Source: Centroberyx gerrardi
Taxonomy: Eukaryota; Chordata; Actinopteri; Beryciformes; Berycidae
Assembly (NCBI RefSeq): GCF_048128805.1
Contig: NC_136012.1
Coordinates: 5,745,121 to 5,809,120 of the forward strand
Direction of reading: 5' to 3'
Length of the DNA: 64,000 nt
Shown: one piece after another, positions 43,391 to 48,631 of the stretch
How positions within the stretch are numbered: position 1 is the first letter of the stretch
Layout of the letters: every line of letters begins with the position of its first letter
The notes under the pieces: model-generated
Database searches by the model: none
What the model was told of the DNA's origin: nothing
What the model saw: the letters and a program-made list of their open reading frames with translations, nothing else
Program-made: the position numbers and the translations under genes

Positions 43391-43788
43391 CTACCTATCA
43401 TCATCAAAGTATAATATGAATGATCTGATTTTAAAATCGTATTACTTTGACAGCAGGTAAGCCCCAGTCTACATTCTTATGAGCAAAAGTCCAGACTCAG
43501 GTCTTGAGGCAAGACACTAAACTAAATATACTAAAGGTCATTGTGTTACAGTTCAGAACCCATCTGCTTTGGAATAAACTGCTTAAAGATATTATGCGGA
43601 TAGATTCTGTTTGTATTTTGAAATCTCTTCTGAAACCCCATCCAGCAAACATTTTGACATTGATGCATGGATACATTTTGATGCTGATATGTCGGCCTGC
43701 ATCAACTCATGTGATGACAGTAGAATGAAGGCATGGACATTGGAGTCGTGGACATGATGGATGCTTTCTGTTAGGAAAAGCTAAGATT

Positions 43789-43860
43789 TAGCAGAGGATG
43801 GTTTCGATCCATCGACCTCTGGGTTATGGGCCCAGCACGCTTCCGCTGCACCACTCTGCT
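43789..43860 (-). tRNA. Initiator tRNA-Met (CAU), copy 1
   Basis: Cytosolic initiator methionine tRNA. The 72-nt minus-strand sequence has the eukaryotic initiator hallmarks: A1:U72 at the acceptor end (AGCAGAG/CTCTGCT), three consecutive G:C pairs in the anticodon stem (GGG CCCATAA CCC) and an ATCGAAA T loop with A54 and A60. It differs from copies 2 and 3 by C-to-U at about position 11, turning a D-stem C:G pair into a U:G wobble within the A box. A TTTT run (43776-43779 on the plus strand as AAAA) lies about 10 nt past the 3' end and should terminate Pol III for this gene and for the tRNA-Arg directly upstream. Confidence 0.94.
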
Positions 43861-43866
43861 TTCAAT

Positions 43867-43939
43867 CACCCCAGATGGGACTTGAACCCACAATCCCTGG
43901 CTTAGGAGGCCAGTGCCTTATCCATTAGGCCACTGGGGC
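43867..43939 (-). tRNA. tRNA-Arg (CCU), copy 1
   Basis: Cytosolic arginine tRNA reading AGG codons. The minus strand folds into a full 73-nt cloverleaf: acceptor 5' GCCCCAG pairs with CTGGGGT (G1:U72 wobble, as in vertebrate tRNA-Arg-CCU), the D arm carries a normal A box, the anticodon stem CTGGC/GCCAG is perfect around loop CTCCTAA, and the T arm holds the B box GGTTCAAGTCC. This is the best-preserved of three Arg copies in the array. It is the upstream partner of the tRNA-iMet whose 5' end lies 6 bp downstream; the gap (ATTGAA on the minus strand) has no T-run, so a Pol III terminator is missing between the two genes. No CCA is encoded and there is no intron. Confidence 0.95.
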
Positions 43940-43989
43940 TACACCTACAGCCAGCTGTGGTGTCATGATTTAGAGCCAGTATGGCAAAT

Positions 43990-46366
43990 GGTCTTATCGG
44001 TTAAAACTGTTTATTCATTTAATTATTTGTTTTTTTGCTTATATTGTCCTTGTATTACATTTTAAAAATATCCTTTATTCATTCAGATTTCATTTTTCCC
44101 CTTTAACCATGACAGCTAGTGAGTCTACACAGGGAAGAGAAAAAAGAATATGAACATTTATCTTTCAATTGTTCATAAAACTAGCAATAAACATTTGAAC
44201 CTAGGAACGCTGAATTGGAATGTGCACCTTGCCTTCAGCCGGCGTTCTCATGTGAAGCAATTCACTGACGGATGATAAAGAGACTGACAGAGACAGTGGC
44301 AGTATCAATATTGCTAGTTCCCGTCTTATGAGCATCTGCTCCGTGACAGCGGGCCACTCATCTTTAGTGTGTTATTTTATTTATTCAGACAGTTGGAAAA
44401 ACCAGAGGAGGAGAGACAGAGGCAGGAGGAGGAGCGGTGGGGATTTGATCCTATAGGCCAGCAGGGATGCAAATAGCTCAAAAGGACACAACTTTTGATC
44501 TTTCTCTCTTGCCAGTAGAAAATGACAGAGACGGATGGAACGATACAGCGCTCCCAGTCAAAACATCGCCGTGACACTGCAGAGGCGACTCCTAATTCAA
44601 ACACTGCACCATGGAGAACAGTCAGATTCACAGCAAATACGATTGCATGCTTTCATGCATTGTTAATATTGTCAGAGTTATTTACTGTGGCTGCAGTTTT
44701 GATGTTGTTGTCGTTACTTTTGGATTGTCCATAGTATCAGTATTTAACCCCTTGCACCCTGAGTTTCCCCTTAAATTTCCTTTTAAGTAACTTCAAAGTT
44801 ATAAAAAACATTTTTCCACACTGTACGACATATTCTGTATCTGCTCGTTCCAGCGCTTCATTTAAGCTATAGCTGCTTATATTGAGTGAAATATTCAAAT
44901 CCAAGATGCATTTTTTATGGCTTCACCACTACAACAAATGGACAAAAAAAATAGATATTTGTGCACCATTTTATCCACATTCCCCTGTAATTCAGCATGA
45001 CATATTTGTTGTCTTTGGAAACCTTGGGATCTTGACTAGAATTTAAAATACATTTCTGTGGGTTTGAACAAAGCTTGGCTGTGAAACGTGTTCATAATGA
45101 TGGTCCCACGTGAGGAACTGTCAGGGTAGAAGCGGTTCTTTGTGTTATTCCTTGTTCTCATTGAGGGTCTTGTCATTTTCACTTATTGTTGTTGTTTCAT
45201 AATGTGGGCTTTGTGAAGCCCTTTGAGACTGTAACTGTGACTAAGGGCTATACAAATAAACTTGACTTGATTTTACATACTGTAGCAATGGTCAGTCTTG
45301 AGGAACTACATTTGTTTGCAAAAAAACAATTGAAAATGCTGTTTTATATTATTTTATATATGAAAATTGTTGTACTACATCAGTGTCCACATCTAATGGT
45401 AGAGCATGACCTTGAGTGTATTATTGCTTAATTGTAAAACTCATCACAACTTGGTGACCGTTGCATTTGCAGAAAATTAGTCTGTAATGTGATCTCAGCT
45501 GAATGTGTTTTCTCTGTTCCCTCCATTTCCTGCAAACATGGAAACATGGGGAAAAAGATTTTAACAATTTGCCAGCACAATCGAAAGCCATGTATGTCCT
45601 CACTGATGGCAGGTGTCTGTCAAATGTATTTAGGAATACGCAGCTGATTTCTACACTTTGGTTGTGCACAAAAGGAAACAGCAAAAAACCAAGAGAATGA
45701 GAGATATATCAAGAAAATGAGTGAGGAATGGAGAAACAAAAATGTCTGAGATCATTGTTGCGCGAGGCTGGTTTGATGAGTGAATGAAAGACAGAGATCA
45801 ACAAGAGCCAAAGAGAGAGAGATAAAAACTGACTCAAGTCTTCGGTTCAAAGCAACATTGTCCCCAGAGGGCGAATTGCTATTAAAATGAAACCCTTGTC
45901 GACATCAAAAACGTTGCAACAGGGTTTTTGTGCCGGAACAGATATTGTGTCTAATCTTGTGTTCCTACACAAGAGCATGTTGGAATCTTAGAATTCATTC
46001 CCAATTGAAAGACAGCAAAAGGGCATCAGAGTCCTTGATCTCTCCACTGTATCCACTGTATCACTTGTAACACCCATATCCACCCCACCACACACAAAGA
46101 AGTCACCTAGGTCCGACGACTGATGTTATGTTACATGACTTCTGGGTAATGAAGTCCTCACAATTCAAACAGTTACCTCTTGCTGCCACTTGGTGCCGCC
46201 AATGTGCAAAATTGCCTAATGCAGCTTTAATTGCATTTCTTTGACAGTTGTGCATGTTTACTTGGTGTTGTAGCTCATGTTGATCTGTCAGTTTTTGTTG
46301 TTTCCGTCTAAATACGACATTTAACCCAGATTATTAGAGGGGGAGTCACTTTATAGAATCAGGTGT
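43990..46366. other. Spacer between tRNA pairs 1 and 2
   Basis: Unique sequence apart from the retroposon tail at 45186-45262. The spacer between pairs 2 and 3 is only about 0.6 kb, so this region is either an insertion into the array or the original distance. Confidence 0.6.
45186..45262 (+). mobile_element. Retroposon 3' tail
   Basis: GTGAAGCCCTTTGAGACTGT, AACTGTGACTAAGGGCTATA and CAAATAAACTTGACTTGATT form the standard 3' end shared by many teleost LINE/SINE families. No upstream body is recognised. Confidence 0.5.
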
Positions 46367-46566
46367 CAAGTGTGTTTTAAATGAGGATGGCTGGCATTGG
46401 TGTTTAATAGCAAGAGCAAGAGTCCTGCAGTGGCCGGGAACAGAAATTGCCTCAGCCATCTCACTGTCGACATGGGTTGATTACTCATGTGATGACAGGA
46501 GAATGAAGACATGAATGTTGGAGTCGTGGACATGATGGATGCTTTCTGTTTGGAAAATTTAAGATT

Positions 46567-46638
46567 TAGCAGAGGATGATTTCGATCCATCGACCTCTGG
46601 GTTATGGGCCCAGCACGCTTCCGCTGCGCCACTCTGCT
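46567..46638 (-). tRNA. Initiator tRNA-Met (CAU), copy 2
   Basis: Second initiator tRNA-Met gene, 72 nt, minus strand. The acceptor, D and anticodon arms match the vertebrate initiator pattern (AGCAGAG start, GGG/CCC anticodon stem, CAT anticodon). One change in the T stem gives a G:U wobble (G53:U61), which is tolerable. An AAAA run on the plus strand 10-14 nt to its left supplies a minus-strand TTTT terminator. The 6-bp gap to tRNA-Arg copy 2 (minus-strand ATTGCA) has no terminator. Confidence 0.92.
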
Positions 46639-46644
46639 TGCAAT

Positions 46645-46717
46645 CACCCCAGATGGCACTTGAACCCACAATCCCTGGTTTAGGAGGCCAGTGCCTTATC
46701 CATTAAGCCACTAGGGC
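46645..46717 (-). tRNA. tRNA-Arg (CCU), copy 2, decaying
   Basis: Second Arg-CCU gene of the array, 73 nt on the minus strand and 6 bp upstream of iMet copy 2. The anticodon CCT is kept, but several stems are damaged relative to copy 1: C31/A39 no longer pair in the anticodon stem, G53/G61 clash in the T stem, and U5:G68 and U12:G23 become wobbles. Two outright mismatches make a stable tRNA doubtful, so this may be a pseudogene, although the internal A and B boxes remain recognisable and could still drive transcription of the downstream iMet. Confidence 0.75.
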
Positions 46718-47044
46718 TACACACATAGCTGACTGTGGTGTGGGTGTCTGAAAGCTTATGCAGACAAAGGCCTTCAGTGCTTTCATTACCCAAATACTCA
46801 TGTCCCGCAGGAACCTCTGTTGTGAACAGTGGCTTCTATTTCTCATTATGTATGATGGAGAAGGCACACATTTGCATGTTACCAACAGTACCATGCTTAG
46901 TATGATTTTAGCGCTCAGCACGCCAGACATTAGGAGTTTAAAACAAATTACAGCACATAGAAAGCTCCTTTATTGGACTTTGCAAGCACCCTCTGTCTCC
47001 TGTGTTTTGACATTTTCCTGCCATAAAGTAGAAGAGAAGCCATA

Positions 47045-47126
47045 TGGCAGTGGTGGGATTTGAACCCACGCCTCCAGAGAGACTGGAGCCTAAATCCAGC
47101 GCCTTAGACCACTCGGCCACACTACC
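47045..47126 (-). tRNA. tRNA-Leu (UAG)
   Basis: Class II leucine tRNA of 82 nt on the minus strand. Acceptor GGTAGTG/CACTGCC pairs throughout (one U:G wobble), with discriminator A. The D arm GGCCGAGTGGTC is the usual leucine A-box form. The anticodon arm is CTGGA-TTTAGGC-TCCAG with anticodon TAG, followed by a long variable arm and a T arm carrying B box GGTTCAAATCC. It sits between tRNA pairs 2 and 3 and is not part of the duplicated unit. No run of four or more T occurs on the minus strand for about 65 nt past its 3' end, so its terminator is not obvious. Confidence 0.95.
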
Positions 47127-47312
47127 AGCTGCTCTGCTTGCATCGCCGCTACGATGCTTGGGAAGCAGCTATGGTGTCCACTGCAGCAGAGAGGAGAGAA
47201 GGCATGTCAAAGTACACATGGGCTGATTACTCATGCAATGACAGGAGACTGAAGGCAGGAATGTTGGAGTCGTGGACATGATGGAGACTTTCTGTTTGGA
47301 AAAGCTAAGATT

Positions 47313-47384
47313 TAGCAGAGGATGGTTTCGATCCATCGACCTCTGGGTTATGGGCCCAGCACGCTTCCGCTGCGCCACTCTGCT
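47313..47384 (-). tRNA. Initiator tRNA-Met (CAU), copy 3
   Basis: Third initiator tRNA-Met gene, 72 nt, minus strand. It shows no departures from the vertebrate initiator pattern that I can see: AGCAGAG/CTCTGCT acceptor, GCGC-type D stem, GGG/CCC anticodon stem, ATCGAAA T loop. A TTTT terminator lies about 10 nt past the 3' end (plus-strand AAAA near 47300). The 6-bp gap to tRNA-Arg copy 3 reads TTTGAA on the minus strand, only three Ts, below the usual Pol III terminator threshold. Confidence 0.95.
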
Positions 47385-47390
47385 TTCAAA

Positions 47391-47463
47391 CACCCCAGAT
47401 GGGACTTGAACCCACAACCCCTGGCTTAGGAGGCAAGTGCCTTATCCATTAGGCCACTGGGGC
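47391..47463 (-). tRNA. tRNA-Arg (CCU), copy 3
   Basis: Third Arg-CCU gene, 73 nt, minus strand, 6 bp upstream of iMet copy 3. Acceptor and T arms are as in copy 1. One substitution in the anticodon stem (CTTGC against GCCAG) leaves a U29/C41 mismatch, and one variable-loop base differs (A to G). The anticodon CCT, A box and B box are intact. It is probably transcribed with the downstream iMet; whether the tRNA is stable is uncertain. Confidence 0.85.
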
Positions 47464-47571: not shown

Positions 47572-47715
47572 ATGTCGACATGGGTTGATTACTCATGTGA
47601 TGATTACTCATGTGATGACAGTAGAATGAAGGCATGGACGTAGGAGTTGTGGACATGATGGAGGCTTTCTGTTTGGAAAAGCTAAGATTTAGCAGATGAT
47701 TTAACAGCCATTCTC
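47572..47715 (-). pseudogene. Fourth array unit with its tRNA pair deleted
   Basis: This stretch repeats the flank found on the left of each Arg-iMet pair (ATTACTCATGTGATGACAG, GGAGT.GTGGACATGATGGA, CTTTCTGTTTGGAAAAGC, TAAGATTTAGCAGA). Where the iMet gene should continue it jumps after TAGCAGAtG to sequence resembling the right flank of the other units (AACAGCCATTCTCA, compare AACGGCCGTTCTCAG near 47510). Only the last few bases of the iMet 3' end remain. A short internal duplication (ATTACTCATGTGATG twice) sits at its left. Best read as a unit that lost both tRNA genes by deletion. Confidence 0.7.

Positions 47716-48418: not shown

Positions 48419-48464
<46 letters not shown>

Positions 48465-48579: not shown

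Positions 48580-48631
<52 letters not shown>
48419..48631 (+). repeat. Two (TG)n microsatellites
   Basis: TG runs at 48419-48461 and 48583-48631 separated by unique sequence. Confidence 0.95.

Follow-up and report, generated by a model that had tools for sequence, protein, structure and literature searches.

In the window, a 64,000-nt stretch of contig NC_136012.1 from the fish Centroberyx gerrardi (assembly GCF_048128805.1), we studied three gene pairs in which a tRNA-Arg(CCT) gene is followed by a gene for initiator tRNA-Met (iMet). A preliminary description had placed these pairs on the minus strand with gaps of 6 nt, and ARAGORN together with Rfam bears out each of them at its position (Table 1). 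The copies are duplicates that share 89-92% identity over 259-308 bp including their flanks, and measured against the commonest genome form of each tRNA, 2/3 of the Arg halves and 2/3 of the iMet halves in the window carry substitutions. The earlier label "triplicated" therefore holds for the three pairs as such, and has to be qualified in that they are unequally intact, are accompanied by a truncated fourth copy and are members of a larger set in the genome.

Table 1 Features of the Arg(CCT)-iMet locus, in window positions (substitutions are relative to the commonest genome form)
Feature	Coordinates	Strand	Remarks
tRNA-Arg(CCT), copy 1	43867..43939	-	identical to commonest form; ARAGORN, Rfam (67.3)
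Linker, copy 1	43861..43866	-	ATTGAA, 6 nt
Initiator tRNA-Met, copy 1	43789..43860	-	one substitution, D stem / box A; ARAGORN, Rfam
TTTT, presumed Pol III terminator	43776..43779	-	starts 9 nt past iMet copy 1
tRNA-Arg(CCT), copy 2	46645..46717	-	four substitutions, probably decaying; ARAGORN, Rfam (47.8 bits)
Linker, copy 2	46639..46644	-	ATTGCA, 6 nt
Initiator tRNA-Met, copy 2	46567..46638	-	one substitution, T stem; ARAGORN, Rfam
TTTT	46554..46557	-	starts 9 nt past iMet copy 2
tRNA-Arg(CCT), copy 3	47391..47463	-	two substitutions, one in anticodon stem; ARAGORN, Rfam (59.2)
Linker, copy 3	47385..47390	-	TTTGAA, 6 nt
Initiator tRNA-Met, copy 3	47313..47384	-	identical to commonest form; ARAGORN, Rfam
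TTTT	47300..47303	-	starts 9 nt past iMet copy 3
Truncated fourth copy	47590..47700	-	only 3' flank and last few iMet bases
tRNA-Leu(TAG)	47044..47127	-	between copies 2 and 3, also belongs to the C16 tandem unit; ARAGORN, Rfam

Genome-wide pairing of Arg(CCT) and iMet genes

Our searches covered the window's own genome of about 779 Mb, in which the window sits on contig C16. Many stretches of 61-74 bases in this genome read N, several of them exactly at iMet places behind an Arg gene and linker, and all counts given here accordingly refer to readable sequence. A 301-bp query, for which 40 of 41 candidates were scored, returned at least 82 matches, a large group of them clustered at C16:5.595-5.622 Mb; a query with the iMet alone returned 31, of which 20 were full length at 95% identity or more. 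A pattern scan allowing up to two mismatches in 35 positions gave 22 iMet 5' halves, of which 21 belong to C16 and the remaining one to C21, and the reversed-pattern control gave none. All 22 are preceded by Arg(CCT) or its remnant (20 audited and two fragments), and the Arg-iMet pairs are the sole iMet source found in the readable genome. Half of the 20 full-length iMets (10/20) lie behind a full-length Arg with four substitutions or fewer and the other half (10/20) behind a broken one, so that, besides remnants, there are ten readable full-length pairs, nine on C16 including the window's three and one on C21. The iMet fragments on C12 (34 nt) and at C16:5622115 (35 nt) were left out of the upstream-Arg check, and a third iMet-like sequence on C14, whose upstream stretch reads N, was left uncounted.

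Both halves lie on the same strand at 6 nt, the spacing of a dimeric eukaryotic tRNA gene, in 3/3 window pairs and in 10/10 readable full-length pairs. Since the closest of 15 other neighbouring tRNA gaps, drawn from 20 other tRNA regions of the genome, measures 100 nt, this spacing is more than would be expected by chance.

Seen from the Arg side, the query returned at least 40 matches (40 of 49 candidates scored). Among the matches listed, 14 reach at least 93% identity over at least 68 of the 73 bases, and 6 nt after them comes a readable iMet in ten cases, a decayed one in two (both on C14) and N bases in two. One of the 14, a paired Arg gene at C16:4487433, carries the anticodon CTT (Lys) according to ARAGORN. 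The more distant matches without an adjoining iMet-like match comprise five that ARAGORN calls Arg(CCG), and those on C15 and at C16:19.58 Mb received no ARAGORN call. We recognised no unpaired Arg(CCT) gene among the Arg candidates that were scored.

The large cluster on C16 includes near-identical tandem units of 2984 bp (C16:5594000-5607000; 99.6% identity between the two compared), which contain Arg, iMet and Leu(TAG) genes. In the one array unit that we read, seven places derive from the Arg gene: one is intact, two are without the anticodon arm and four are without the B box. The iMets of the same unit are readable at four places and read N at three.

Identity of the Met half

The Met halves in the window carry A1:U72, a GGG:CCC anticodon stem, C33 and A54/A60, as read off the sequences, which we take to be the features of vertebrate initiators; an elongator tRNA-Met as the paired gene is thereby ruled out. 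An elongator-Met pattern had 35 matches, confined to C1, C6 and C9, and repeats about every 2184 bp at C1:29061669-29121434 and about every 1.1 kb at C9:393158-397529. A copy of the iMet gene at C16:5619693 has the anticodon TAT (Ile) according to ARAGORN.

Age and conservation of the pairing

The pair on C21 equals the commonest C16 form at 145/145 tRNA positions, and its linker differs at 3/6 (Fisher 3.6e-5). Had the pair been copied recently, its linker should be the same. The 60-nt flanks of the C21 and C16 pairs match no better than shuffled sequences (33/300 and 71/300 shuffles reached the score), and within one 10-kb stretch only short, weak matches were found beyond the tRNAs. Because identical tRNAs are here combined with a diverged linker and unrelated flanks, selection appears to be maintaining both C21 tRNAs.

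Seven pairs in which at least one half has decayed keep the 6-nt gap, one each on C4, C9 and C13, two on C14 and two at C16:4.43 Mb, where the gap of one pair with a deletion in its iMet was read by eye; in a further pair, at C16:3.89 Mb, the gap is too decayed to read. The decayed C9 pair shows differences at 38/145 tRNA positions. Judging by these decayed copies, which keep the gap, and by the extent of change in the C9 pair, the Arg-iMet pairing is old in the lineage. With 22/22 readable iMet 5' halves behind Arg(CCT) or a remnant of it, it also proves stronger than the preliminary description had it.

Exceptions occur among the decayed copies, five of whose iMet-like sequences had no significant upstream Arg (shuffles reaching the score: C11, 336/500; C22:19.35 Mb, 320/500; C21:8.37 Mb, 80/500; C7, 485/500; C24, 37/500). 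Directly before three of them (C21:8.37 Mb, C24 and C22:19.35 Mb) stands ATTGAC or ATTGAT, which resembles the linker. Those at C22:19.35 Mb and C11:26.47 Mb share, by eye, a similar 3' flank (CCAGTTTCC...), and perhaps belong to a small iMet-derived repeat family. Exact patterns of the junction and of the iMet had no match in bacterial and archaeal genomes or viral contigs, which is as expected for collections free of fish and carries no information on conservation.

Further repeats and neighbours

Tandem tRNA matches that are mostly 1602 bp apart occupy C13:3030293-3088037, the first 8 kb of which hold one Lys(TTT) per unit and two Ala(AGC). In the window, two long TG dinucleotide runs (48420-48461 and 48582-48630) adjoin the tRNA cluster, and ten open reading frames of the window gave no Pfam match.

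A probable dicistronic transcription unit

RNA polymerase III (Pol III) normally stops at oligo-T, and an active Arg gene on C16 should for this reason read on into the iMet and end at the later T-run. Such a run is a constant of the set: TTTT starts 5-9 nt past the iMet in 20/20 full-length iMets and occurs in the linker in 1/20 (the C21 pair), and 3/3 window pairs combine a linker without TTTT with a TTTT after the iMet. The frequency of TTTT in a 13-nt stretch of window DNA is 0.078. The runs after the iMet mostly consist of four Ts. In vertebrates the T-run length needed for termination is lower than in fission yeast. In Schizosaccharomyces pombe, according to the available part of one report, termination at four Ts is negligible (PMC4982682). 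For trypanosomatids, single-gene units were deduced from T-runs after each tRNA and are called common among eukaryotes, as far as the accessible text of that study goes (PMC2695483).

On balance, the intact Arg(CCT)-iMet pairs are each likely to be a dimeric (dicistronic) Pol III gene, for which we infer co-transcription and cleavage: a single RNA would probably carry both tRNAs and then be cut apart. Pol III would be recruited via the A and B boxes of the tRNA-Arg and start just upstream of it; it would meet no oligo-T in the 6-nt linker, run on through the iMet and stop at the TTTT about 10 nt past it. RNase P, acting at the 5' end of the iMet, and RNase Z/ELAC2, acting at the 3' end of the Arg, would then separate the two tRNAs. 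The iMet presumably retains its own internal promoter and may start transcripts of its own as well, mainly where the Arg is broken. The unit itself would be old, with amplification on C16 that gave rise to the window copies and to the tandem units of 2984 bp, and with a single pair kept on C21 under apparent selection. The predicted fold of the copy 1 dimer consists of two separate halves (-59.1 kcal/mol, close to the sum of the -30.2 and -28.6 kcal/mol for the single halves), the Arg as a full cloverleaf, which makes this dimer a plausible RNase P/RNase Z substrate. The two-tRNA unit and the T-run after the iMet thus stand from the earlier proposal of one Pol III transcript carrying two tRNAs, the transcript itself being one that we predict from sequence.

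Several observations weigh against a dicistronic gene. The C21 linker, ATTTTC, holds a TTTT of its own, so that the earlier statement that no terminator lies between the tRNAs and a TTTT lies about 10 nt past the iMet is correct for the three window pairs (TTTT at 9 nt) and is not universal. While TTTT stands at 6-8 nt in 5/7 decayed iMets, it lies at 17 nt in one (C16:4.43 Mb), and another (C9) has none in the following 60 nt. In the controls, TTTT started within 25 nt in 8/30 other tRNA-like genes, occurred within 45 nt at 1/5 Arg(CCG) loci and within 60 nt at 0/5 Leu(TAG) genes, and was present at 3/3 elongator Met loci, although the flanks of two of these are nearly the same. The 30-gene control was sampled where the Rfam matches scored best and is full of repeated tRNA-like genes, so that it says little about genes that work. 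As the controls are mixed, the missing TTTT in the 6-nt gap is weak evidence alone, and the constant TTTT after the iMet is the stronger fact. The predicted minimum-energy fold of copy 2 does not form two cloverleaves, the C16 copies are not independent of each other, and N bases fill many iMet-sized places. Finally, Args without a B box precede three iMets that match the commonest form exactly, all from a single position of the unit that recurs three times. Because such iMets follow Arg remnants lacking this promoter element, the suggestion in the preliminary description that the iMet depends on the Arg promoter is weakened in its strict form, and the iMet may be autonomous.

Alternative explanations

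The iMets behind Args without a B box also favour two independently transcribed genes, in which the iMet would start in the linker from its own A and B boxes, the Arg would end at weak or non-canonical sites or run through to no effect, and the pairing would be an accident fixed by duplication. The TTTT in the C21 linker points the same way, as does the absence of a nearby TTTT at many tRNA-like genes of this genome, and vertebrate iMet genes elsewhere are autonomous. We nevertheless regard this explanation as rather unlikely, considering that the linkers of the C16 copies contain no Pol III stop, that an upstream factor site of the iMet would fall on the body of the Arg gene, and that 22/22 of the readable iMet 5' halves found have remained paired. 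A somewhat better, still tentative case can be made for the window copies being largely non-functional relics of local duplication, with C21 and the array at C16:5.6 Mb as the sites of the working dimers, an explanation compatible with dicistronic transcription at those places. None of the window pairs is unchanged in both halves, the Arg of copy 2 scores 47.8 bits vs 67.3 for copy 1, a truncated fourth copy is present, and 6/7 Arg places are broken in the array unit that was read. Yet the Arg of copy 1 and the iMet of copy 3 are identical to the commonest form, the iMets of copies 1 and 2 have single changes, and the T-runs are retained.

A retroposed element resembling a short interspersed nuclear element (SINE) and made of two tRNAs, instead of a tRNA gene pair, is very improbable. 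The dispersed copies on several contigs do match little beyond the dimer, and the term "dimeric tRNA" occurs in the available text of two SINE papers (PMC3272025, PMC8010984). However, these copies are few, both C21 tRNAs are perfectly conserved next to a diverged linker, and the flanks of the dispersed copies show neither an A-rich tail nor a shared non-tRNA body by eye, no formal search for target sites having been made. On the appearance of these flanks, a SINE or retroposed origin was set aside rather than disproved.

Known dimeric tRNA genes and implications

Yeasts have well-established dimeric tRNA genes, and those of fission yeast are the best known. In budding yeast, Saccharomyces cerevisiae, a dimeric tRNA-Arg/tRNA-Asp precursor was reportedly described by Engelke in 1985; it resembles the present case in that an Arg tRNA is part of a two-tRNA precursor, and differs from it in that the partner is Asp instead of iMet and the organism is a fungus. 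The preliminary description had compared the pairs with the Ser-iMet dimers of fission yeast, in which the Met of the S. pombe pair is the initiator and the gap is short; Ser-driven expression of this Met gene is said to go back to Hottinger-Werlen in 1985. The Ser-Met pair itself is supported in the accessible parts of two papers, one stating that Pol III expression of the Met gene is driven by the Ser gene upstream of it (PMC7721064) and one naming the dimeric SER+MET transcript (PMC6173581). The fish pairs share with it an upstream tRNA joined to a Met tRNA; unlike in S. pombe, however, the upstream partner is Arg(CCT) and not tRNA-Ser, the genome is that of a fish, transcription is something we infer from sequence, and the iMet also stands behind broken partners.

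In zebrafish and stickleback, 65% and 87% of the tRNA genes, counted together with pseudogenes, are clustered, and zebrafish tRNA pairs are mostly heterogeneous and nearly all parallel, with K-N, K-S and R-T as the commonest (Bermudez-Santana 2010, PMC2888827, available text). Those clusters are defined by distances below 1000 nt, compared with 6 nt here, and the same text, as far as available, contains neither an Arg-Met pair nor the word "dicistronic". In line with the preliminary description, which did not know the pair as a described vertebrate arrangement, we recognised no description of an Arg-iMet dimer in a vertebrate in the literature searched, as far as its texts were available and with few subscription journals covered, and the Arg-iMet version in a vertebrate appears to be new.

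It is possible, and we advance it tentatively, that dicistronic Arg-iMet transcripts are where all initiator tRNA and all tRNA-Arg(CCT) come from. How much translation can be initiated would then be tied to the decoding of AGG and to cutting of the 6-nt linker by RNase P and RNase Z, and the arrangement would be old enough to occur in many related fishes. As a rule, a tRNA gene of a vertebrate is described as a Pol III unit of its own. If the dicistronic reading is true, C. gerrardi would hold an operon-like two-tRNA unit for an essential vertebrate RNA, with all readable iMets as its downstream half, and would provide a natural test of whether the supply of the initiator is influenced by Pol III dimers, by cleavage of the linker and by the choice of promoter.

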